DNA of 64,000 bases, taken from contig CACJEN010000003.1 in assembly GCA_902592445.1 (NCBI GenBank), positions 62,001 through 126,000 of the forward strand, given 5' to 3'. Within the stretch, counting starts at the first letter, position 1, and each line of letters starts with the position of its first letter. A program made the translations under genes and the position numbers. Origin of the DNA: an uncultured Pelagibacteraceae bacterium (GTDB lineage: Bacteria; Pseudomonadota; Alphaproteobacteria; Pelagibacterales; Pelagibacteraceae). The notes under the pieces are model-generated. The model ran no database searches. It had not been told where the DNA came from and was given only the letters and a program-made list of their open reading frames with translations. Positions 4,249 through 53,041 of the stretch are shown in pieces.

Positions 4249-6116
4249 GCTATATGCTTAATAGACTTTCTTTTAAGGTGAGACAATAAAATATATACGG
4301 CTGCAGGTGTTATCCCGTCTATCCTAAGGGCTTGACCCATTGTTTTAGGCTTTATTTTCTTGAATTTTGATTTAACTTCATTTGAAAGTCCTGAGAAAGC
4401 GTCATAATTAATATTATCTGGGATTATTAAATTTTCATCTCTTTTAAAGGCTAAAATATCAGCTTTTTGCTTCTTCAAATAACCTTTGTAATGAGAGTTT
4501 ATCTCTAATTGTTCATCTATTTCACGTGAAACATAAGGTATTTCTGGCCAAATTTCCCTTATTTTACTCATATTAACCGATTTTTGGCCTAATATTTGGA
4601 ATGCGGTTCTACTAACCCCGTCCTTTGCAATATTAATACCATAATTTTCAACTTTTGATGGGGTAATTTGTAATTTTGACATATGTTTCTCAATTTTTAT
4701 TAATTGCAAATGTTTTTCTTTAAATATTTGAGCTCTATGATTATCAACAACTCCCAAATCAATTCCTTTTTGAGTTAATCTAACATCCGCATTATCTGAC
4801 CTTAATGATAACCTATACTCAGCTCTTGAGGTAAACATTCTGTATGGTTCTGCTACACCTTTTGTAACCAAGTCATCTATCATAACTCCAATATATGCGT
4901 CTGATCTATCAAGTATAAAAGGTTCTTCACCTTTAATAGATAGAGCAGAATTCATTCCAGCGATTAAGCCTTGTGCAGCAGCCTCTTCATATCCAGTTGT
5001 TCCATTTATTTGACCAGCAAGATAGAGATTTTTGATTTTTTTAGTCTCTAAAGTTAAAAAAAGCTCTCTTGGATCAATATAATCGTATTCAATAGCATAC
5101 CCAGGCCTTAATATTTTTACACTCTCTAATCCATTTATTTTGTTACATATTTCTTGCTGTATCTCTGGTGGCAGTGAAGTTGAAATGCCATTTGGATATA
5201 TAGTATTATCATTTAAACCTTCTGGCTCTAAAAATATTTGGTGTCGCTTCTTGCCCGCGAATTTTTTTATTTTATCCTCTATGGATGGACAATATCTTGG
5301 ACCTACTCCTTGGATGCTGCCAGAATACATAGCACTTCGCTTAATATTTTTGGAAATGATTTTGTGAACTTCCTCATTGGTATAAGTCATTTTGCAAGAG
5401 ATTTGTTTGTTTAAATTTTTTTCGGTTAAGAAAGAAAAAAAATATGGATCTTCGTCTGCATGTTGAGCTTCCAAATTTTCAAAATTAATTGTACGTGCAT
5501 CTAATCTTGGTGGAGTTCCTGTTTTTAATCTACCAACTTTAAAATTGAACTTTTCTAGTTGTTCACTTAAACCTGTTGATGGTTTCTCATCATATCTCCC
5601 TGCTGGGGTTTTTTTATCGCCAATATGTATAAGACCATTTAAAAATGTGCCGGTTGTTAGAATTATCTTAGATGATCTGATTTCTTTACCAGATTGAGTG
5701 TTAAAGCCAATTATAGCATTATTTTTAAATATAAAGCTAATTACAGGATCAGAATAAATGCTTAAATTACAGTAGTTTACTAGTTTTTCTTGCATGAATT
5801 TTTTATATAATGATCGATCACTTTGTGTTCTGGGTCCTCTTACTGCAGGACCTCTACTTCTATTTAGGAGCCTAAACTGTATTCCTGATTTGTCCGCAAC
5901 TTCCCCCATAACACCATCTAAAGCGTCTATTTCTCTGACCAAATGACCTTTGCCAAGTCCACCAATTGCAGGATTACAGGACATTTCCCCTATGGTTTCG
6001 AAGTTATGCGTGAATAGGGCAGTGTTAACTCCCAATCTTGCAGATGCTGCCGCTGCCTCACAACCAGCATGCCCACCCCCAATAACCACTACATCAAATG
6101 ATAACTCATTTTTCAT
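4245..6116 (-). CDS. mnmG: tRNA uridine-5-carboxymethylaminomethyl modification enzyme MnmG
   Basis: MnmG (GidA) is the FAD protein that, with MnmE, installs the cmnm5 group on wobble U34 of several tRNAs. The protein has 623 residues, the usual length. The N-terminal dinucleotide-binding motif [17 protein letters not shown] starts at residue 13. It is followed by the strongly conserved [18 protein letters not shown], and then the RLKTGTPPR and [10 protein letters not shown] segments typical of the family. The C-terminal helical domain ends [20 protein letters not shown], as expected. It overlaps rsmG by 4 bases and its partner mnmE lies just upstream. A one-mismatch parS copy is embedded near its 3' end. 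Confidence 0.98.
4518..4533. promoter_or_regulatory. second parS-like site, one mismatch
   Basis: TATTTCACGTGAAACA differs from the parS consensus only at position 2 (A for G). The inner palindrome TTTCACGTGAAA is intact. It lies in the 3' part of mnmG, 332 bases from the perfect site, and encodes the VSRE residues of MnmG. Two sites close together next to parAB fit a partition locus. Confidence 0.75.
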
Positions 6117-6192
6117 GTCTTTAATTTATTATCGTTATTAGATTTTACAAGATACTAGTTATTACTCTTTTTGCGGTTTTCTTAGTGGATGA

Positions 6193-7567: not shown

Positions 7568-9250
7568 TTATCTTTTGTAAATTTCTAAAAGAGAACTGCC
7601 AAAATTACTTGCAAATTTCTTTGTATCAAAAAGAGGTGTATTTAAAATCCTATCAAATATGTCTCTTCTTAAAATTGAGAGTTTATCAATGTTATTTGAA
7701 AGCTCTAAAGCTTTTACTATATAGTCTTCTGGACTCTTTGAAATAAGTTGGTCAAGATTTGCATTTTTAAGAATGCTTGATCCACATCTTGAGTTAAAAT
7801 TATATCCCAACATAGTTAATACAGGTATTCCACACCACAAAGCTTCAAATGACGTTGTTACTCCATTGAAGGGAAAAGTATCTAGTGCGATATCAATCTT
7901 TTTATACAAATTTAAATGCTCATTTAAACTAGGATAGTCTACCCTGTTATAGAATTCTATTGAATTTAGAACTCCATTTTTTTTGAAAATATCGATAATT
8001 CTTTTAGGAAAGCTATTATTTGATGATTTAAGAATTAGCTTTGAATTTTGAGATTTTTTTAAAATTTCAGACCAAACATATACTGTTTCATCAGAAATTT
8101 TGAGAAAATTATTAAATGAACCATAAGTAATATAATTGTTTTTTTTTGCAGGTGTTTCACTAAAATCTCTTTTAAAATCAAAGCCAGAATGTGCATTCCA
8201 AATGTCTTTAAGTTTAATAATTTTTTCTGAGTAATGATTTTCCTCTGATTTAATTAAATTATTATCAGCGATCAAGTAATCTATGTTTTTAAATCCGATT
8301 GTATTACAATAGGCTAACCATGATACTTGCACAGGAGATACTCTAGATTTAAATATTTCTATTCTTTTACTCGATGTCAAACCACCAATATCTATCAATA
8401 CTTCTATCCTCTCTTTTTGAATTTTTTCTATGACTTCCTGATTGGATAATTTATTAAAATTAAACCATTTTTCTGAACTATCTTTAATTTCCTTAGAAGA
8501 TTCATCAACTTGATCTGAAAAAGAAAAGACATATGTTTCAAATTTATTTTTGTCTAAATATTTAAGTAATTTTTTTACAAAAAATGTTACGGAATGATAC
8601 TTGCTGAAATCTCTCGATACTAGACCTATTCTTATCTTATCATTTTTTTTGAATTCTATTTCAGAGATAGGTTTAACTTTATTAGTAAAGAAATAATTTT
8701 CGTATTTTTTTGAGTGATTAAAAAAATTTTCTTGTTTCCAGTGTGATGTATAGTTATTTACAAATGCATATCTTGCAATGACAGATGTATTTTTTGGGTT
8801 AATATGGATTAATTTCTCCAAAATTTCTTTAATTTTTGGAACATCAACAAAATATTTATATAGCTCTACTCCATTAATTAACAATTTTTCATTATCATTA
8901 AAATTTTTAAGTGCTTCGGTAAAATATTGTTCAGCTATAAAGATTTTTTCTGAAAGTTTTTTAATTGAATTAATGTAAGTTGTACTAATTGAGATCATAT
9001 TACATAAAGAATCCAATCCATGAATTGTGTTTTTCTCTTTTAAATAAGCATCTTCAAAATCCAACATAGAAGATAAAATATCATTTTCATCTTTGTTTAA
9101 TTTTAGAATTTTACAAAGACCTAATAAATTTGATAAACCTGCAGGTCTTTGTTCGATTTGGGTCTTTTCTTTTGCAACTTTTAAAGCTAATTCATAATCC
9201 TTTTTAATAAAAAGTGATTTTATTTCTTCAATTACAGATCTACTTATCAT
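7568..9250 (-). CDS. GT41-family (SPINDLY/OGT-like) glycosyltransferase
   Basis: This is a 560-residue protein resembling bacterial O-linked N-acetylglucosaminyltransferases (glycosyltransferase family 41). The N-terminal 200 residues look like degenerate TPR helices. The C-terminal half has the GT-B landmarks of the family: KIRIGLVSRDFSKYHSV, VLIDIGGLTSSKRIEIF, PVQVSWLAY, ITYGSFNNFLKIS with its sugar-nucleotide loop, and DTFPFNGVTTSFEALWCG with GIPVLTM. Such enzymes usually move GlcNAc or another sugar from a nucleotide donor to protein Ser/Thr. The target is unknown. The gene is inserted between rho and mnmE, which are close neighbours in many alphaproteobacteria, so it may be an accessory acquisition. 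Confidence 0.85.
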   Translation of the reverse strand: MISRSVIEEIKSLFIKKDYELALKVAKEKTQIEQRPAGLSNLLGLCKILKLNKDENDILSSMLDFEDAYLKEKNTIHGLDSLCNMISISTTYINSIKKLSEKIFIAEQYFTEALKNFNDNEKLLINGVELYKYFVDVPKIKEILEKLIHINPKNTSVIARYAFVNNYTSHWKQENFFNHSKKYENYFFTNKVKPISEIEFKKNDKIRIGLVSRDFSKYHSVTFFVKKLLKYLDKNKFETYVFSFSDQVDESSKEIKDSSEKWFNFNKLSNQEVIEKIQKERIEVLIDIGGLTSSKRIEIFKSRVSPVQVSWLAYCNTIGFKNIDYLIADNNLIKSEENHYSEKIIKLKDIWNAHSGFDFKRDFSETPAKKNNYITYGSFNNFLKISDETVYVWSEILKKSQNSKLILKSSNNSFPKRIIDIFKKNGVLNSIEFYNRVDYPSLNEHLNLYKKIDIALDTFPFNGVTTSFEALWCGIPVLTMLGYNFNSRCGSSILKNANLDQLISKSPEDYIVKALELSNNIDKLSILRRDIFDRILNTPLFDTKKFASNFGSSLLEIYKR

Positions 9251-33821: not shown

Positions 33822-35474
33822 ATGAAAGAAAATAAATTAAATTTTGATAGATTAAAAATTTTTAATCTTTTCCAAGACAAAAAATATGCCAAAATATCAA
33901 AGATATCTAAGTCTATTTTGAAAACTTTTGCTCAAGATAAAGAGATTTATAAAATTATTATATTTAGCGAGCTGAATGAAAAAAACTTTACTAAAGCTAA
34001 AATTGTATCTGAGAAACTGCTTGATTTGATTAATGATGCTGAAACAAATTATATACATGGCAATGTTTTAAAATTACAAAACAAATTTAAGGAAGCAATT
34101 ATTTTCTATGAAAAAGCAATTGATTATAAAAAAGATTATTTTGAAGCATATAATAATCTCGCCACATCTCAAAAGAATATTGGTTTAAAAGATAAAGCAT
34201 TTGAGAATTACAAACATGCTATTAATCTAAAAAAAAATAACTTGGAGGCCCATTATAATTTAGCGAATCTTTTGTATGATGAAAAAAGATTCGATGAAGC
34301 TCGTGAAAACTACGAAAAGGTAATTGAAATCGATAACAATTTTCCACAATCATATTTATTAATTGGTCTTATATATTCTGTTCAGGGTAATTTTGAAGAA
34401 GCAAAGAATTATTTTTTAAAAGCTACACAGAAAGATAAATTTTTAACTGAGGCTTATGTTTACTATGTAAATACGAGAAAAATTGATAAAAATGATAAAA
34501 TAATTAAAATTTTGGAGGAGCTTATAAGTCACAGAGATCTTCATCCTAACTATGAACAAGATATTTCATTTGCCCTAAGTAAAGTTTATTTTGACATAGA
34601 AAATATTGATCTCGGATTTAAATACTTAAAAAATGCAAAAAAATTGTATTTGAAAAAAATTGATTTCTCAATTGAGGGAGAAAAGAAATCATTTAGAAAG
34701 GTAAAAAAATTCTTCTCACTAAACAAATTTACAAAAATAGATTTTAAAGACAATTATAAAGTTTATCCAATATTTATATTAGGTATGCCTAGATCAGGCA
34801 CTAGTCTGTTAGAGCAAATTATATCAACACATTCTGAAGTTTTTGGTGCTGGAGAACTTAATACCATGCCTAAAATTTTTTATGAGGCCAACTGGAATGA
34901 AAAAACAAATCCAGAAGAGTTATTTAAATTTGTAAGGAGAGAATATTTATCAAATATAGAAAAAATTCAGACCTCAAAAAGACTTTTAATAGATAAAATG
35001 CCTTTTAATTTTTTTTCAGTAGGATTTATTTTAAACTCAATTCCTGAGGCAAAGATTATTCATATGTCAAGAAATCCAATGGCTGTTTGTTGGTCAAATT
35101 ATAAATCTAATTTTTTTGATAATATTGGAATGGATTACGCTCACAAATTAGAAAGTATAGCTGAATACTATATAATTTATAATGAAATGATGAATTTTTG
35201 GAGAGAGAAGTATCCGATGAGTCTTATAGAAGTTGATTATGATAAATTTGTTTTAGATTATGAAACAAACTCAAAATCAGTTATAGCGAAAATCGGATTG
35301 AACTGGGAAAATCAAATTTTAAAATTTTATGAAAATAATAGAGCTGTTGAAACAAATTCATTATTGCAAGTAAGAAGCAAAGTGTATCAAGATAGTTCAC
35401 AAAAATGGAAAAAATATGAGAAGCACTTGAAACCTATTATGGATATACTTAAAGATAATAACATTGAATTTTAA
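33822..35474 (+). CDS. TPR-containing sulfotransferase
   Basis: This is a 550-residue protein with TPR repeats in roughly residues 60-240 (repeats such as YEKAIDYKKDYFEAYNNLA and NYEKVIEIDNNFPQSYLLIG) and a C-terminal sulfotransferase domain. The 5'-phosphosulfate loop is GMPRSGTSLLEQIISTHSEV, beginning at residue 321. The 3'-phosphate-binding helix is IHMSRNPMAVCWSNYKSNF. Bacterial TPR-sulfotransferases of this layout are common, with unknown acceptors; tyrosine or sugar sulfation are possibilities. A second sulfotransferase starts 3 bases after its stop, so the pair is co-transcribed. Confidence 0.88.
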   Translation: MKENKLNFDRLKIFNLFQDKKYAKISKISKSILKTFAQDKEIYKIIIFSELNEKNFTKAKIVSEKLLDLINDAETNYIHGNVLKLQNKFKEAIIFYEKAIDYKKDYFEAYNNLATSQKNIGLKDKAFENYKHAINLKKNNLEAHYNLANLLYDEKRFDEARENYEKVIEIDNNFPQSYLLIGLIYSVQGNFEEAKNYFLKATQKDKFLTEAYVYYVNTRKIDKNDKIIKILEELISHRDLHPNYEQDISFALSKVYFDIENIDLGFKYLKNAKKLYLKKIDFSIEGEKKSFRKVKKFFSLNKFTKIDFKDNYKVYPIFILGMPRSGTSLLEQIISTHSEVFGAGELNTMPKIFYEANWNEKTNPEELFKFVRREYLSNIEKIQTSKRLLIDKMPFNFFSVGFILNSIPEAKIIHMSRNPMAVCWSNYKSNFFDNIGMDYAHKLESIAEYYIIYNEMMNFWREKYPMSLIEVDYDKFVLDYETNSKSVIAKIGLNWENQILKFYENNRAVETNSLLQVRSKVYQDSSQKWKKYEKHLKPIMDILKDNNIEF

Positions 35475-37236: not shown

Positions 37237-37311
37237 GCGGGCATAGCTCAGTGGTAGAGCGTCTCGTTGCCAACGAGAAGGTCGTGGGTTCGAGTCCCAT
37301 TGCCCGCTCCA
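37237..37311 (+). tRNA. tRNA-Gly (anticodon GCC)
   Basis: A full cloverleaf can be drawn. The acceptor stem GCGGGCA pairs with TGCCCGC. The D-arm is GCTC-AGTGGTAGA-GC, and the anticodon arm TCTCG-TTGCCAA-CGAGA gives anticodon GCC. The T-arm is GTGGG-TTCGAGT-CCCAT. A CCA end is encoded after discriminator T. It is flanked by an FkbM gene and a sulfotransferase paralogue, a typical place for accessory insertions. Confidence 0.97.
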
Positions 37312-47755: not shown

Positions 47756-48169
47756 TTAAATCTTACTCATGTTATTTATAATTTTCCAGCTTTTATAATC
47801 AACTGGCATTACTGAAAGCCTGCTTTGTTTGATTAAGGCTAAATGGCTTAAATCCTTAATTTTTTTAATATTTTCAAGCGTAACTGGAGTTTGTAGTTTA
47901 CTTTTAAATTTTACTTTAACCGCTACAAACTTTCTCTTTTTATCTGTTGGATCTATATATGCAGTTTTAATTACCTCAACAATACCAACAATTTCTTTAC
48001 CAATATTTGAGTGATAAAAAAAACAAAGATCACCCTTTCTCATTTTTTTAAGATTATTCGCAGCTTGATAATTTCTAACACCATCCCAATCAGCCCCTTT
48101 TGATCCTGCTTTAAATTGTTGATCAATTGACCATACATCAGGTTCTGATTTTAATAACCAAAAATTCAT
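47756..48169 (-). CDS. EVE domain protein
   Basis: This is a 137-residue EVE protein (PUA-like fold, YTH-related). It shows NFWLLKSEPDVWSIDQ at the start, WDGVRNYQAANNLKKMRKGDLCFFYHS with the family's aromatic binding site, GIVEVIKTAYIDPTD and a C-terminal SRLSVMPVD. EVE domains bind modified bases in DNA or RNA; stand-alone bacterial forms have unclear roles. It lies directly upstream of acs. Confidence 0.93.
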   Translation of the reverse strand: MNFWLLKSEPDVWSIDQQFKAGSKGADWDGVRNYQAANNLKKMRKGDLCFFYHSNIGKEIVGIVEVIKTAYIDPTDKKRKFVAVKVKFKSKLQTPVTLENIKKIKDLSHLALIKQSRLSVMPVDYKSWKIINNMSKI

Positions 48170-48231
48170 TTTTTAACTAAATAATTTTTAATTGCTATAA
48201 CCAATTAAATTATACATAATCAACTTACAAA

Positions 48232-50973
48232 ATGTTTAAGTCAATTATTTTTGCTGTTTTTTTAACTACTTTATTTTTACAGCCCAGTGCTCAGGCAATA
48301 AAATATAAAGTTACAGAAAAAGAATATATAGACAGATGTTACGATTGGGACATTTATCGAGTGAATATTTGCCCTTTTCCAGCAGAGTTAGAATACTTAT
48401 GTGATGATTGTAGATATGATGGTGAAGGCAGAACTCAAAAAAATGGAAACATTATACCTGATGGAAGTGGAAATTATTCAAACATTATAATTGAAAGTTT
48501 TATTCCACCAAACCCAAATCCTTCCTCTGAAGATGATTTTGATTTACAAATTTTTAATATGGAAACTCAATGCTTAGGAGATAGTAATTGTAATAGGTCT
48601 GTTAGACCAAGAGTTCCAATTATTTCCGTAGCAGACATTGAACCAGAACCAGAAGTAAATGAAAATAATAGAAATGTGAGAACACGTAATGGCTTTAATT
48701 TTATTTCATTTGAGCCACCATCTCAAAATTGGAATTTTAATAATGAATATATTTCGCGAGGTTTTGCATCTCAATATGGTGCAAATTTTAATTCTGACAA
48801 CCCCACAGGTCGTGATCTAGAAAGAATCTTTTATGCATACGACGTAGGCGGCGGCGATATTGGTCTTAGAACGTATAGAGTTAATGTTAAAGAGGACGTG
48901 AGAGATGATGGGGAAAATATTATTGGATTTAATATAAATACATATAGAGCAGACATAGATAAGTCTACAGTAACTTTTATGATCACTACGGAAGCAAACA
49001 ACACTTATACTCTTACGTTTACTGAAAGGGAATTTCGCGGGATGAGTGGGGTTATGAGTGGGGTAGACTTTGGAAAATTAAATACAAAGGAATGGAGTGA
49101 GGAATTTTTAGATGGGAGCCCTGCTGTCAATGTTGCATTTGTTGGAAGAAATGTTGTTAAAGCAGAATTAGTTAAGACTAATTTTCATGAGATCCAAAAT
49201 TCGGTTAATCAGGAAACAGTTAAAGTTGGTGAGGTTGAAACAGTAAAAGAGGTAGAGATAAAAGTTGAAAAAAAGGATGTAAAAGTACCTCAAAATGCTA
49301 ATGAAGCTTTAATTTCAATGGGAGCCCCATCGGCTAAGCAAAAAGAATTTACTATTGATAAAGATTTACTTTATCCTGCTAAAATAGCAACAGATGCACT
49401 TATTCTTAATTATAATGGAAAATTTAAAAAAGGTGTTCCACACGGAAAAGGTACTGTTACTATTTTAAACCCTAAAACTAATTTAAAATATGGTCTTTAT
49501 GGAGATTATAAAATTAATTTATCTGGAACTTTTAAAAATGGGGTTTTTACAAAATTAAACGAAATATACTACCTAAAATCAGGAGAAGTATTTAAATTTA
49601 CTAAAGGTGTAAAGCCATATGAAAGTAAATTTACTAGAAATATTCTCCATGGAGCATGTTCAGGAAAATGTAAAAAAATCAAAATTTCTCTTGATAATAT
49701 TAATTTAGGAGAACCATCAAAAAAATTCAAAAATATGCCAGGTATTAATTCTAAATTAATTAGTCAAACTCAATTGTTTAAGAATAATACACCAACAATA
49801 TTATCTACCCATGTCACTATTGAAATGGAGGATGATAAAGGAAATATTTTACCAACCTTAGGTATCGATCTACCACCGCTTGCAAGAAAAAGTTTATTTA
49901 CGCTTCCAGGGTATAATGATTTTACATCTGCAAATAATATAAACATCAATGATCGTAATATGGTTAAAGAACTTAAACTTAATATTTTAAATTTAAAAAA
50001 AACAGATCTAGAAAATAAGGTTAAGGATCTATTACAGAATAGTAAAATTAAAGATAGAAAAGAACTAATCAAGGAATCAAAAAAAATATCAAAAAAATAT
50101 AAAATTCCACCAAGTGGATTTATTCAAAAAGATATAATTGAACATTTATCAAATGACGAGGCTCATAATAATCAACCAATGACAGCTGATTATTCGGATT
50201 TACTTGCCGCTGGTGCGAGTGGAGAAAGCGCAAATAGCAAAAAAGAATTTTTACCTCCGATTACGTTTCCTGTGCCTGAAATTAAAGTCCAAAAATTGAG
50301 ATTTGCGAGAGGTGACAAAACACTTAATATAGAGAGTGAACCCATAGACCACAAAGTTGACAACGATTTCCTTGAAAAATCACAATCAGGAAATGCCGAA
50401 AAAATATCTACAATGGAAAGTATGGAATTTAATGTAGCAATGGAAGCAATGACTACTTTAAGACCAAAAGCAGATAACGATACAGAAAGCTATTTTAATC
50501 TTATTGGTGGAAACGCCGTAGTTAATGCATTTGGGGTTGCTGGATATGCACAACAAGTTATTGAGCTTTTAAATAACAGTAGATACTTCGGCAATTTAGA
50601 ATTTTTAAAAACCAATGATATAAATTATATTTTAAAAAGTTTGATAGAAACTAATTTACCAATCAATTCAAGACTAGATCTAGACGATGAATATATAAAA
50701 ACAATATTTGAAAAAAGCGATTTAGAAAAACTGGGAGTAATCCTGGAGTTTTATTTTAATACTCTAAGAGATGACAAAAACCCATCATTACAAGAAGCAA
50801 ATTCTATTATTGAACAATGTAAAAATGCTCCACTTTGCAATGTTAGTCTTATTAATTGGAATAATTCAGATTATGGAATGATATCTGATGATATGAAAAA
50901 AATTCTAAAAGTTGTAGAAGAAAGTGTTCAAAATGACCGTGATGGTGGCTCCGAAGGAGGAGGGGGCTGGTAA
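48232..50973 (+). CDS. large secreted protein of unknown function with MORN-like segment
   Basis: This is a 913-residue protein I cannot assign. Residues 1-22 are a signal peptide (cleavage expected after PSAQA). A Cys-rich stretch follows, with CYDWDIYRVNICPF and YLCDDCRYDG. Around residue 393 are MORN-like repeats (YNGKFKKGVPHGKGTVTI and LSGTFKNGVFTK). The region 590-660 is charged and helical. The protein ends in a Gly-rich tail with terminal Trp (EGGGGW). It is the largest gene in the window and stands alone between EVE/acs and a small convergent secreted protein. It could be a cell-surface or periplasmic structural protein. Confidence 0.75.
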   Translation: MFKSIIFAVFLTTLFLQPSAQAIKYKVTEKEYIDRCYDWDIYRVNICPFPAELEYLCDDCRYDGEGRTQKNGNIIPDGSGNYSNIIIESFIPPNPNPSSEDDFDLQIFNMETQCLGDSNCNRSVRPRVPIISVADIEPEPEVNENNRNVRTRNGFNFISFEPPSQNWNFNNEYISRGFASQYGANFNSDNPTGRDLERIFYAYDVGGGDIGLRTYRVNVKEDVRDDGENIIGFNINTYRADIDKSTVTFMITTEANNTYTLTFTEREFRGMSGVMSGVDFGKLNTKEWSEEFLDGSPAVNVAFVGRNVVKAELVKTNFHEIQNSVNQETVKVGEVETVKEVEIKVEKKDVKVPQNANEALISMGAPSAKQKEFTIDKDLLYPAKIATDALILNYNGKFKKGVPHGKGTVTILNPKTNLKYGLYGDYKINLSGTFKNGVFTKLNEIYYLKSGEVFKFTKGVKPYESKFTRNILHGACSGKCKKIKISLDNINLGEPSKKFKNMPGINSKLISQTQLFKNNTPTILSTHVTIEMEDDKGNILPTLGIDLPPLARKSLFTLPGYNDFTSANNININDRNMVKELKLNILNLKKTDLENKVKDLLQNSKIKDRKELIKESKKISKKYKIPPSGFIQKDIIEHLSNDEAHNNQPMTADYSDLLAAGASGESANSKKEFLPPITFPVPEIKVQKLRFARGDKTLNIESEPIDHKVDNDFLEKSQSGNAEKISTMESMEFNVAMEAMTTLRPKADNDTESYFNLIGGNAVVNAFGVAGYAQQVIELLNNSRYFGNLEFLKTNDINYILKSLIETNLPINSRLDLDDEYIKTIFEKSDLEKLGVILEFYFNTLRDDKNPSLQEANSIIEQCKNAPLCNVSLINWNNSDYGMISDDMKKILKVVEESVQNDRDGGSEGGGGW

Positions 50974-50974
50974 C

Positions 50975-51421
50975 TTATTTATCTTTATATTTAATTTCTT
51001 TAGCTCCACTTTTCTCTTTAAGGCTTAAATATTCATCTTTTGTGATTTCTATAATTTCATGTTTTCCAGGCATCATCATTTTCCCTTTTTTAAAAATTAT
51101 TTTAAAATAGTGATTAGAATTTTCCAAAATTCTTTTAGTTTTAAATTTTTTGGCTCCACCTAAACCTGTAACTGGAAGATTTACACTTAAACCAACCTTA
51201 GTTACAATTTTATGTTTGCCTTTTTTAGTTTCAATTACCCCATAATTATCATGCCAAAATTTTCCAATATATTTTTTTCCTAGATATACTTTTACTCCTT
51301 GACCAACAGTTTTTAGGTCAGCGGGTCTTATAAAATGCGCCTTTACCTCACTCGAAAATGAGTAGCTAGGAATTAGTAAAATTAGACTTAAAATAATAAT
51401 AGTAAAAATCTTTTTATACAT
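50975..51421 (-). CDS. small secreted protein of unknown function
   Basis: This is a 148-residue protein with a signal peptide (hydrophobic residues 5-19, cleavage near SFS). The mature part has the pattern VKVYLGKKYIGKFWHDNYGVIETKKGKHKI. This resembles small beta-domain lipoprotein-like families (DUF2846 or PEGA-like) in which a displayed value and a GKH turn recur. No lipobox Cys is present. It converges with the 913-residue protein, leaving 1 base between stops. I cannot give a function. Confidence 0.7.
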   Translation of the reverse strand: MYKKIFTIIILSLILLIPSYSFSSEVKAHFIRPADLKTVGQGVKVYLGKKYIGKFWHDNYGVIETKKGKHKIVTKVGLSVNLPVTGLGGAKKFKTKRILENSNHYFKIIFKKGKMMMPGKHEIIEITKDEYLSLKEKSGAKEIKYKDK

Positions 51422-51496
51422 AATAACTAAAACTTATTTCAAAATAACATTAATATCTATAGATTATTTTGATTCAGAATTATTATAATAAAGTAC

Positions 51497-51928
51497 GTGA
51501 AAAAACTTATCGCAATTTTGTTTACAATCTTATTTGTTATTAATTATCTGCAACATAGAAACGATAACACAATTGGAGAAATATTATTTATATACCTTAA
51601 ACTAATTGGCGGAGTTAGCTTTGTACTTTTGGCAATAGTGTTAAGCATAAAATACCACAAAAAAGCAGGCTACTCCTTATTTGATACAAATACCCTTGTT
51701 AATTGGGATAATATAAAAAAAAATCATTTTTTCAAATGGGGTAAAAATATTTCATCAGCAAATTTAAGATTATCTAGAATTAATTATGTAGCCTTAATTT
51801 ATTTATTACCGTCTTTTGCGATTAATTTTACCGAAGGGTTTTTAAAATACTTATTATTAATTTTGATATCTATACTGTTAACATGGTATGGATATTTATT
51901 GTTTTTTGTTTGGAAACATAAAAAATAA
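51497..51928 (+). CDS. small membrane protein of unknown function
   Basis: This is a 143-residue protein with about four membrane segments: residues 4-16, 28-47, and two in the C-terminal 40 residues (VALIYLLPSFAINF and LLLILISILLTWYGYLLFFVW). The middle has NWDNIKKNHFFKWGKN, a polar loop. Start is GTG at 51497. No family is recognised. It lies between two minus-strand genes, apparently transcribed alone. Confidence 0.65.
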   Translation: MKKLIAILFTILFVINYLQHRNDNTIGEILFIYLKLIGGVSFVLLAIVLSIKYHKKAGYSLFDTNTLVNWDNIKKNHFFKWGKNISSANLRLSRINYVALIYLLPSFAINFTEGFLKYLLLILISILLTWYGYLLFFVWKHKK

Positions 51929-51964
51929 AATTAATTTTTTTCAATAAAAACTTTTAAAAAACTA

Positions 51965-53041
51965 TTAATCTAAAATTAGGCCTGAACCCTTTAAAAATTG
52001 AGCATTTTCATCAAGAGGTAGCCTTGGGCTTGCTGGCAATTCTAAACTATCAAATTGTTTTTTTTTAAATTTCTCTAATCCTACCATCGCTATCATAGCA
52101 GCATTATCCCCACATAATTTTAAATCTGGAAAAATAGGTTTAAAGTTATGAAATAAACTAACTTCAATTAATTTTTTTCTAATCTCTTTATTTGCTGCAA
52201 CCCCTCCCGCTACAACAAATTTATAATTTTTACCTGGATTTAATTTTATAAACTCATCGAAAGCAACTTTTGTTTTTACGAATAGTATATCTTCAATTGT
52301 TTTTTGAAACGATGCTGCAAGATCATATTTTTCTTGCTCACTCTTAATATTTTTTACAATTCTTAAAATTGCAGTCTTCAAACCTGCAAAAGACAAATTA
52401 CATCCACCTTTATTAATTATTGGTTTTGGTAGGTCATATTTTTCTGCATTTCCCTTTTTTGCAAATTCCTCAATTTTGGGTCCCCCAGGGAAATCTATTC
52501 CAAGCATTTTTGCAGTTTTGTCAAAAGCCTCTCCTAATGCATCATCTATAGTAGTACCAAGTCTTTTATAATTTCCTAATCCATTTACTGATAGATACTG
52601 ACTGTGTCCCCCAGAAATTAAAAGTAAAAGATATGGGTAATCTATTTTGTCATGAAGTTTCGGGCTTAAAGCGTGCCCCTCTAAATGATTGACCCCTATA
52701 AAAGGAATTTTCAAAGTTGATGCAAGCCCTTTTCCAAAACTTAGCCCAACAGAAAGACAAACTATTAAACCAGGACCATAAGTTGCTGCTATCGCTGAAA
52801 TTTTATTTAATTCAATTCCACTTTCTTTGATTGCTTTTTTGGCTATCAGATCAATCTTTTCAACATGCGATCTAGCCGCTAGTTCAGGAACAACACCCCC
52901 AAACTCTTTATGAACATCAAATTGACTAGAGACTATATTCGATAGAATTTTTGGTATCCCTGTTTCATTGTCTTCAATTAATGAAATAGCAGTCTCATCA
53001 CAACTAGTCTCAATACCTAATATTATTGGCTTTTCTGACAT
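51965..53041 (-). CDS. tsaD: tRNA threonylcarbamoyladenosine synthase subunit TsaD
   Basis: TsaD transfers the threonylcarbamoyl group to A37 of ANN-decoding tRNAs. The 358-residue ASKHA-fold protein has GIETSCDETAISLI at the N-terminus and the metal-binding HLEGH (His119 and His123). It also has LLISGGHSQYL, GTTIDDALGEAFDKTAKMLG, FPGGPKIE and LCGDNAAMIA. It is divergent from hemC, the arrangement found in many alphaproteobacteria. Confidence 0.98.
   Translation of the reverse strand: MSEKPIILGIETSCDETAISLIEDNETGIPKILSNIVSSQFDVHKEFGGVVPELAARSHVEKIDLIAKKAIKESGIELNKISAIAATYGPGLIVCLSVGLSFGKGLASTLKIPFIGVNHLEGHALSPKLHDKIDYPYLLLLISGGHSQYLSVNGLGNYKRLGTTIDDALGEAFDKTAKMLGIDFPGGPKIEEFAKKGNAEKYDLPKPIINKGGCNLSFAGLKTAILRIVKNIKSEQEKYDLAASFQKTIEDILFVKTKVAFDEFIKLNPGKNYKFVVAGGVAANKEIRKKLIEVSLFHNFKPIFPDLKLCGDNAAMIAMVGLEKFKKKQFDSLELPASPRLPLDENAQFLKGSGLILD

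Follow-up and report, generated by a model that had tools for sequence, protein, structure and literature searches.

A 913-residue, putatively exported protein carried as island cargo at the EVE-tsaD junction of Pelagibacteraceae

Introduction

Four hypervariable regions (HVR1-4) have been described in SAR11, one of which, HVR2, holds mainly cell-surface genes (PMC2217521, in the part of its text available). The locus described here, an insert between an EVE-domain gene and tsaD in an uncultured Pelagibacteraceae bacterium, is like these regions and like the replacement-type islands of SAR11 in its strain-variable cargo, its richness in cell-surface genes and its conserved flanks (PMC2217521, PMC11898729 and PMC4033161, each available in part). 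It differs from them in the small size of the inserts and in its position: the EVE-tsaD site is absent from the text examined of PMC2217521 and PMC11898729, and PMC2217521 nowhere uses “acetyl-CoA synthetase”, “glycoprotease” or “sialoglycoprotein”. Titles and abstract openings in the literature held no description of the site or of the 913-aa protein encoded in it (p913), which is weak evidence of absence.

Two other described systems are comparable with p913 itself. C-terminal sorting signals are known in the LPXTG, PEP-CTERM and GlyGly-CTERM types; p913 is like the proteins that bear them in having a special C-terminal end on an exported protein, but lacks the terminal hydrophobic helix and the basic end after its glycines, the chain stopping at Trp913. 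With MORN repeat proteins (PF02493) it shares one unit of the consensus Y.G.F..G..HG.G, but this single unit falls under the family cut-off, and no resemblance was found for the remaining chain.

Results

The insert between the EVE-domain gene and tsaD

The window (the whole stretch of DNA analysed, 64,000 nucleotides) contains the insert, its flanks and the features of p913 summarized in Table 1; the name tsaD for the right-hand gene is presumed. P913 is encoded by the longest open reading frame (ORF) of the window, the next being 698 aa, as an earlier note on this DNA had claimed; the coordinates, strand and length that the note gave for it were all exact. The other two insert proteins (148 and 143 aa) were each found in one of 61 genomes, their own.

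Table 1. Coordinates of the insert, its flanks and the features of p913 (positions in the window).
Feature	Position	Strand	Observation
Left conserved flank, EVE-domain gene	47756..48169	-	PF01878, E 2e-44
Insert between EVE gene and tsaD, occupied hotspot	48170..51964	.	
p913 ORF, 913 aa	48232..50973	+	Full-length relative known
Likely Sec signal peptide, residues 1-22 (..SAQA/IK, cleavage at the slash), by eye	48232..48297	+	Strongest hydrophobic stretch, without lipobox Cys
Cys-rich head, residues 23-145 (C36, C47, C57, C60, C114, C120)	48298..48666	+	
MORN-like unit, residues 394-408	49411..49455	+	Pfam PF02493, 14.3 bits, E 0.038, below cut-off
Replaced or variable segment, residues ~651-760	50182..50511	+	Drop in amino-acid identity with relative
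Gly-rich C-terminal tail, residues 904-913, DGGSEGGGGW	50941..50970	+	
148-aa protein, signal-peptide-like start (by eye)	50975..51421	-	Weak DUF2846, 21.6 bits (cut-off 34.3)
143-aa protein, membrane-type by eye, island neighbour	51497..51928	+	
Right conserved flank, presumed tsaD	51965..53041	-	Found in 58 of 61 genomes, counting its own

The only tRNA of the window lies at 37237. The insert ORFs were without recombinase match, strong border repeats were absent, and no integrase, tRNA or att repeats, as expected of an integrative mobile element, were present at the borders. Because a tRNA, a recombinase match and a clear border repeat are all absent here, homologous recombination in the flanking core genes is the likely route of exchange. 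Elsewhere in the window, two large transferase-like genes were recognized by eye, one (7568-9250) resembling the GT41-type cargo of locus L014 and the other (33822-35474) resembling a TPR-sulfotransferase.

A hotspot with changing cargo

The junction was compared, on the stretch downstream of tsaD, in 40 of the 57 other tsaD-matching genomes, hand-picked mostly by score order (L005-L044), and the gaps were measured on the longest ORFs. In 23 of these congeners at most 118 bp separated the EVE-domain gene from tsaD, and the two mostly touched or overlapped; in the other 17 they were split by inserts of 0.8 to 9.5 kb. Some filled sites held near-identical cargo (L007/L009, L011/L013), so the 17 sites do not represent 17 independent events. 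Thirty-three cargo ORFs were listed in them and 20 were scanned; Pfam matched 14 of them at 1e-5 or better, and six had no match. By our reading, 12 of the 14 were of glycan or surface-modifying types: GT41 (four), other glycosyltransferases (three), epimerase/dehydratase (two), and one each of FkbM methyltransferase, carbamoyltransferase and sulfotransferase. The remaining two were a VTC domain and a cytosine DNA methylase.

The EVE-tsaD junction is a gene-exchange hotspot with changing cargo, and p913 is clearly part of that cargo. As in replacement-type flexible genomic islands, the same conserved flanks enclose cargo which differs or is absent in relatives, and the histories of cargo and core genes are discordant (see below). 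The p913 gene had been called expensive for a streamlined genome; costly it is, but as the strain-specific cargo of an insertion hotspot it is not a fixed cost of such a genome.

Two further observations were made at this site in other genomes. The hotspot of locus L016 (1305-4255) holds a C5 cytosine methylase whose neighbours may form a restriction-modification set; the one neighbour scanned in PADLOC was without match. In locus L072 (~6001-6189), the remnant of a short Gly-tail gene, of the kind described below, lies beside tsaD, next to an insert that by eye resembles a sialic-acid-type sugar pathway.

One full-length relative of p913

A peptide-pattern scan of 84,980 species genomes gave one locus, L001 of Pelagibacteraceae AG-915-G14, whose protein aligned with p913 over the full length (67-68% identity) and whose gene lay at the same place, between the EVE-domain gene and tsaD. 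This relative starts without an ATG: its first codon is a GTG that overlaps the last part of the preceding gene. A whole-genome search matched p913 in one of 101 genomes (its own), and a search of the order in three of 397: its own, G181, which from its coordinates is probably the same record as L001, and G089. The last match (G089/L004, E 5.7e-4) was rejected as chance, lying inside a cysteine-synthase-like gene (named by eye). Presence across SAR11 had been proposed as a check, and in the genomes searched p913 proved to be rare, with one full-length relative beyond its own genome. No relatives were found in viral contigs or in phage or plasmid records, and an origin from phage or plasmid was therefore rejected; among PHROGs, p913 matched nothing at E 1 or better and its relative had two weak matches (E 0.049 and 0.18).

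The two proteins together point to export. The call was made by eye and from a hydropathy plot, without a signal-peptide predictor: the top hydrophobic windows of p913 begin at residues 1-6 (up to 1.69), and a weaker one lies around residues 755-780 (the best 19 residues after residue 30 start at 762, with 1.2). Identity with the relative is unbroken from A22/I23, the likely cleavage point, and all ten Cys are kept: the six of the head, which the earlier note had rightly called Cys-rich, and those at residues 476, 480, 863 and 869. By their spacing they fall into five close pairs. Since identity starts at A22 and every Cys is conserved, we infer that p913 is probably exported, as had been claimed, and probably carries disulphides. 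A Cys at +1 of the signal peptide, as in lipoproteins, is absent, the first Cys being residue 36.

The Gly-rich end reported earlier is present in p913 (Table 1), and the tail of its relative is DSGGDGGGDDGW. Such ends are rare: at least five Gly in the last 14 residues were present in 11 of 889 distinct ORFs (of at least 80 aa, from 62 loci, some of which had been fetched for matching the short-protein module described below), these being p913, its relative and nine short exported proteins of the same module. This rarity and a frame that stays open over the full length in the diverged relative argue that the p913 ORF is more than chance. A DNA pattern for GGGG[CW]-stop matched two of 300 genomes, at p913 and inside an aldehyde-dehydrogenase-like gene, where no gene ends; it shows only that the exact p913 tail is private within the 300 genomes scanned, and does not cover other tails. 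No sorting-signal model was listed for p913 in NCBIfam. The suggestion that the tail is a sorting or anchoring signal is indirectly supported by the presence of Gly-rich tails on further exported proteins of this slot, but neither a known type of C-terminal signal nor a processing enzyme was found.

P913 and the island diverge differently from the core genes

Between the window and the relative's locus, p913 showed a dS of 0.44, lower than that of the core genes (EVE, tsaD, hemC, mscS-type and folD; 1.13-1.86), and a dN/dS of 0.50 against 0.04-0.14 in the core genes, a value that comes from one pair of sequences and is confounded by recombination; relaxed constraint also fits it. For 19 SAR11 genes, ratios of 0.04-0.23 are given in the available part of PMC2217521. 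Divergence within p913 was patchy: pS varied from 0.00 (codons 351-400, 97% nucleotide identity) to 0.65 (codons 701-750), and amino-acid identity in blocks of 50 codons from 90% to 26%. Identity was 26% in codons 651-700 and 48% in codons 701-750, flanked by 76% before and 63% after. Given a dS below that of the core genes and this patchy divergence, the exchange of p913 appears to be more recent than the split of the two lineages, and the gene is a mosaic with a replaced internal segment.

Two further pairs of loci were compared. In the pair L066/L069, the flanks were close (dS 0.16 for EVE, 0.17 for hemC and 0.30 for tsaD) and the cargo distant (dS ~1.0-1.5): the contents of the island were swapped. 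In the pair L001/L066, three cargo genes (carbamoyltransferase, 238-aa protein and SGNH-like protein; dS 0.40-0.50) were closer than EVE (0.91) and tsaD (1.17), and the short Gly-tail gene was not lowered (1.53).

Rarity (the own genome among 101, and three matches among 397, one of them by chance) and a dN/dS of 0.50 would also be expected if p913 were near-neutral transient cargo, recently acquired and heading to loss. We consider this unlikely: the frame is intact in both genomes, all Cys are kept, dN/dS is below 1, and 50-codon segments with 86-90% identity persist near the replaced ones.

A single MORN-like unit and no known family

The MORN-like repeats described earlier in p913 were reduced to one weak stretch, below the curated Pfam cut-off of 22.5 bits here and in the relative, where it scored 20.6 bits (E 0.00039). 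Pfam gave no tandem MORN units in p913, BLASTP gave no self-repeats, and a MORN family search of the window's genome was without match at E 0.001. No credible curated family was found for p913 in Pfam, NCBIfam, PHROGs or PADLOC, and NCBIfam matches at residues 322-362 (E 0.03-0.5) were judged to be chance; the protein is unassigned, as first described, and homology to a known family, which the earlier note had named as what would refute its view, was not found in these collections. Structure prediction and remote-homology search, also proposed there, yielded little: the two-sequence profile of p913 had no relative in PDB at E 5, and the AlphaFold models had a mean pLDDT of 27.8 for the full protein and 39.6 for residues 371-650, with low-confidence hairpins at the MORN-like unit. 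The poor prediction is due to there being too few relatives.

A large, exported, island-borne protein with replaced segments could be a polymorphic-toxin-like or bacteriocin-like protein that is secreted and used between strains, in which the parts for delivery are conserved and other segments can be exchanged. For p913 this is improbable: the clearest replaced segment is internal, with no C-terminal toxin module; no toxin domain was found in Pfam, NCBIfam or PADLOC; and the relative has no ORF of at least 80 aa between its gene and tsaD as an adjacent immunity candidate.

Short exported Gly-tail proteins of the same slot

Just before the gene of p913's relative lies one for an exported MORN-like protein of 167 aa, whose last residues are SGGSGGSGC. 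Searching with this protein gave matches below E 1e-8 in eight of 300 genomes, including a short remnant beside tsaD (G228) and a gene with an in-frame stop (G592). When the search of the order was included, an intact short Gly-tail gene was present in 12 loci (L001, L066-L069, L071 and L086-L091; L073-L076 and L092 were looked over and left out of the set). The encoded proteins are of ~160-270 aa, with a signal-peptide-like start and a MORN-like motif. Nine of the 12 have a Cys at or near the end (six ending in Cys, two in CG and one in CSN), and the others end in Ser (L071 and L086) or Tyr (L087). At least five Gly in the last 14 residues were also present in nine, with fewer in L071, L087 and L088. 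The gene lies directly beside tsaD in eight loci, one gene away in L001, L089 and L091, and elsewhere in L086, among sugar-pathway-like genes.

Eight of the 12 short genes were in a fixed cluster with genes for a carbamoyltransferase (assigned by Pfam in L001), a 238-aa protein and an exported SGNH-like protein; that of L087 stands alone, and at L067, L089 and L091 a contig end interrupts the neighbourhood. The cluster recurred in L001, L066, L068-L071, L086, L088 and L090, and was broken in L070. The exported protein is taken to be SGNH-like from its GDSQ motif and, in L001, was without Pfam match. The 238-aa protein carries DEYKH and DEERH motifs, presumably di-iron-like, and the matches of its profile, to designed di-metal proteins, were all short of significance (E 0.095-0.3). 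Its gene was matched in eight of 300 genomes, six of them strongly; the two weaker matches (G223 and G564) are outside the cluster count. In all six strong-match genomes the cluster also included the short Gly-tail gene, in one case with an in-frame stop.

P913 resembles these short proteins in its signal-peptide-like start, MORN-like unit, Gly-rich tail and slot, but is unlike them in length and in the Cys at or near the end of nine of the 12. Homology between them, expected from the tail, the slot and the MORN motif, could not be shown, the profile comparison being at noise: hhalign of p913 with the short family gave a probability of 3.8% (E 0.011) over 34 columns at the MORN unit; when an HMM built from the 12 proteins was searched, p913 was not among the top matches listed, which include shuffled copies and unrelated ORFs of the window; and the relative of p913, with its tail removed, scored E 0.99. 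A profile match over the MORN unit and the domain after it, as expected of a member of the short family, is lacking.

The short family matched at least 99 of 300 genomes (E 0.001) and at least 182 of 397 (1e-8); judged by frame lengths, these were largely a separate 128-aa protein. Among the matches listed, this separate MORN-like protein appears to be common across the genus. Among MORN matches in viral contigs (L093-L100), L099 and L100 alone had a long frame, and neither frame ends in a Gly tail.

P913 might act as a periplasmic partner of envelope-glycan modification, beside the carbamoyltransferase and the exported SGNH-like protein, as the short Gly-tail proteins may do. The gene of its relative comes after the carbamoyltransferase, 238-aa, SGNH-like and short Gly-tail cluster, and the six genomes of 300 with a strong 238-aa match all pair it with a short Gly-tail gene. 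This role is nevertheless rather doubtful: the 238-aa gene was unmatched in the window's genome (84% complete), the cluster is not in the insert, and the profile of p913 against the short family is at noise. More speculative still, and highly improbable in our view, is that the slot hosts a class of exported proteins whose Gly tail, in most cases with a Cys as its last residue or close to it and otherwise ending in Trp, Tyr or Ser, is a dedicated substrate for anchoring or tailoring; the carbamoyltransferase, the putative di-iron 238-aa protein and the SGNH-like protein would modify this tail or an attached glycan, and p913 would be a giant client of this tail mechanism that evolved separately.

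Discussion

The reading that we favour, at about even odds (a probability of roughly 0.5), is that the small replacement-type island between the EVE-domain gene and tsaD encodes in p913 an accessory protein of the cell envelope, which is exchanged between strains and diversifies in patches. P913 would be made with a cleaved signal peptide and exported, local disulphides would probably stabilise it, and it would be displayed within the envelope or on its outside, ending in a flexible Gly-rich tail. Strains would swap alleles as well as entire islands, most likely by recombining within the core genes on either side, and p913 would diversify or be replaced in parts with the conserved frame kept, which fits a component of the envelope that phages or grazers put under pressure. 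Display at the surface under such pressure is suggested by the company of the locus and the patchy divergence of the protein; a periplasmic place fits equally.

SAR11 is very abundant and streamlined, so a near-private gene of 2.7 kb is notable there. The EVE-tsaD junction is a compact swap site, and much of its recognisable cargo is of glycan or surface type. Both this site and the set of exported Gly-tail proteins can be traced in single-cell genomes and metagenomes, and may lead to the drivers of SAR11 surface diversity.
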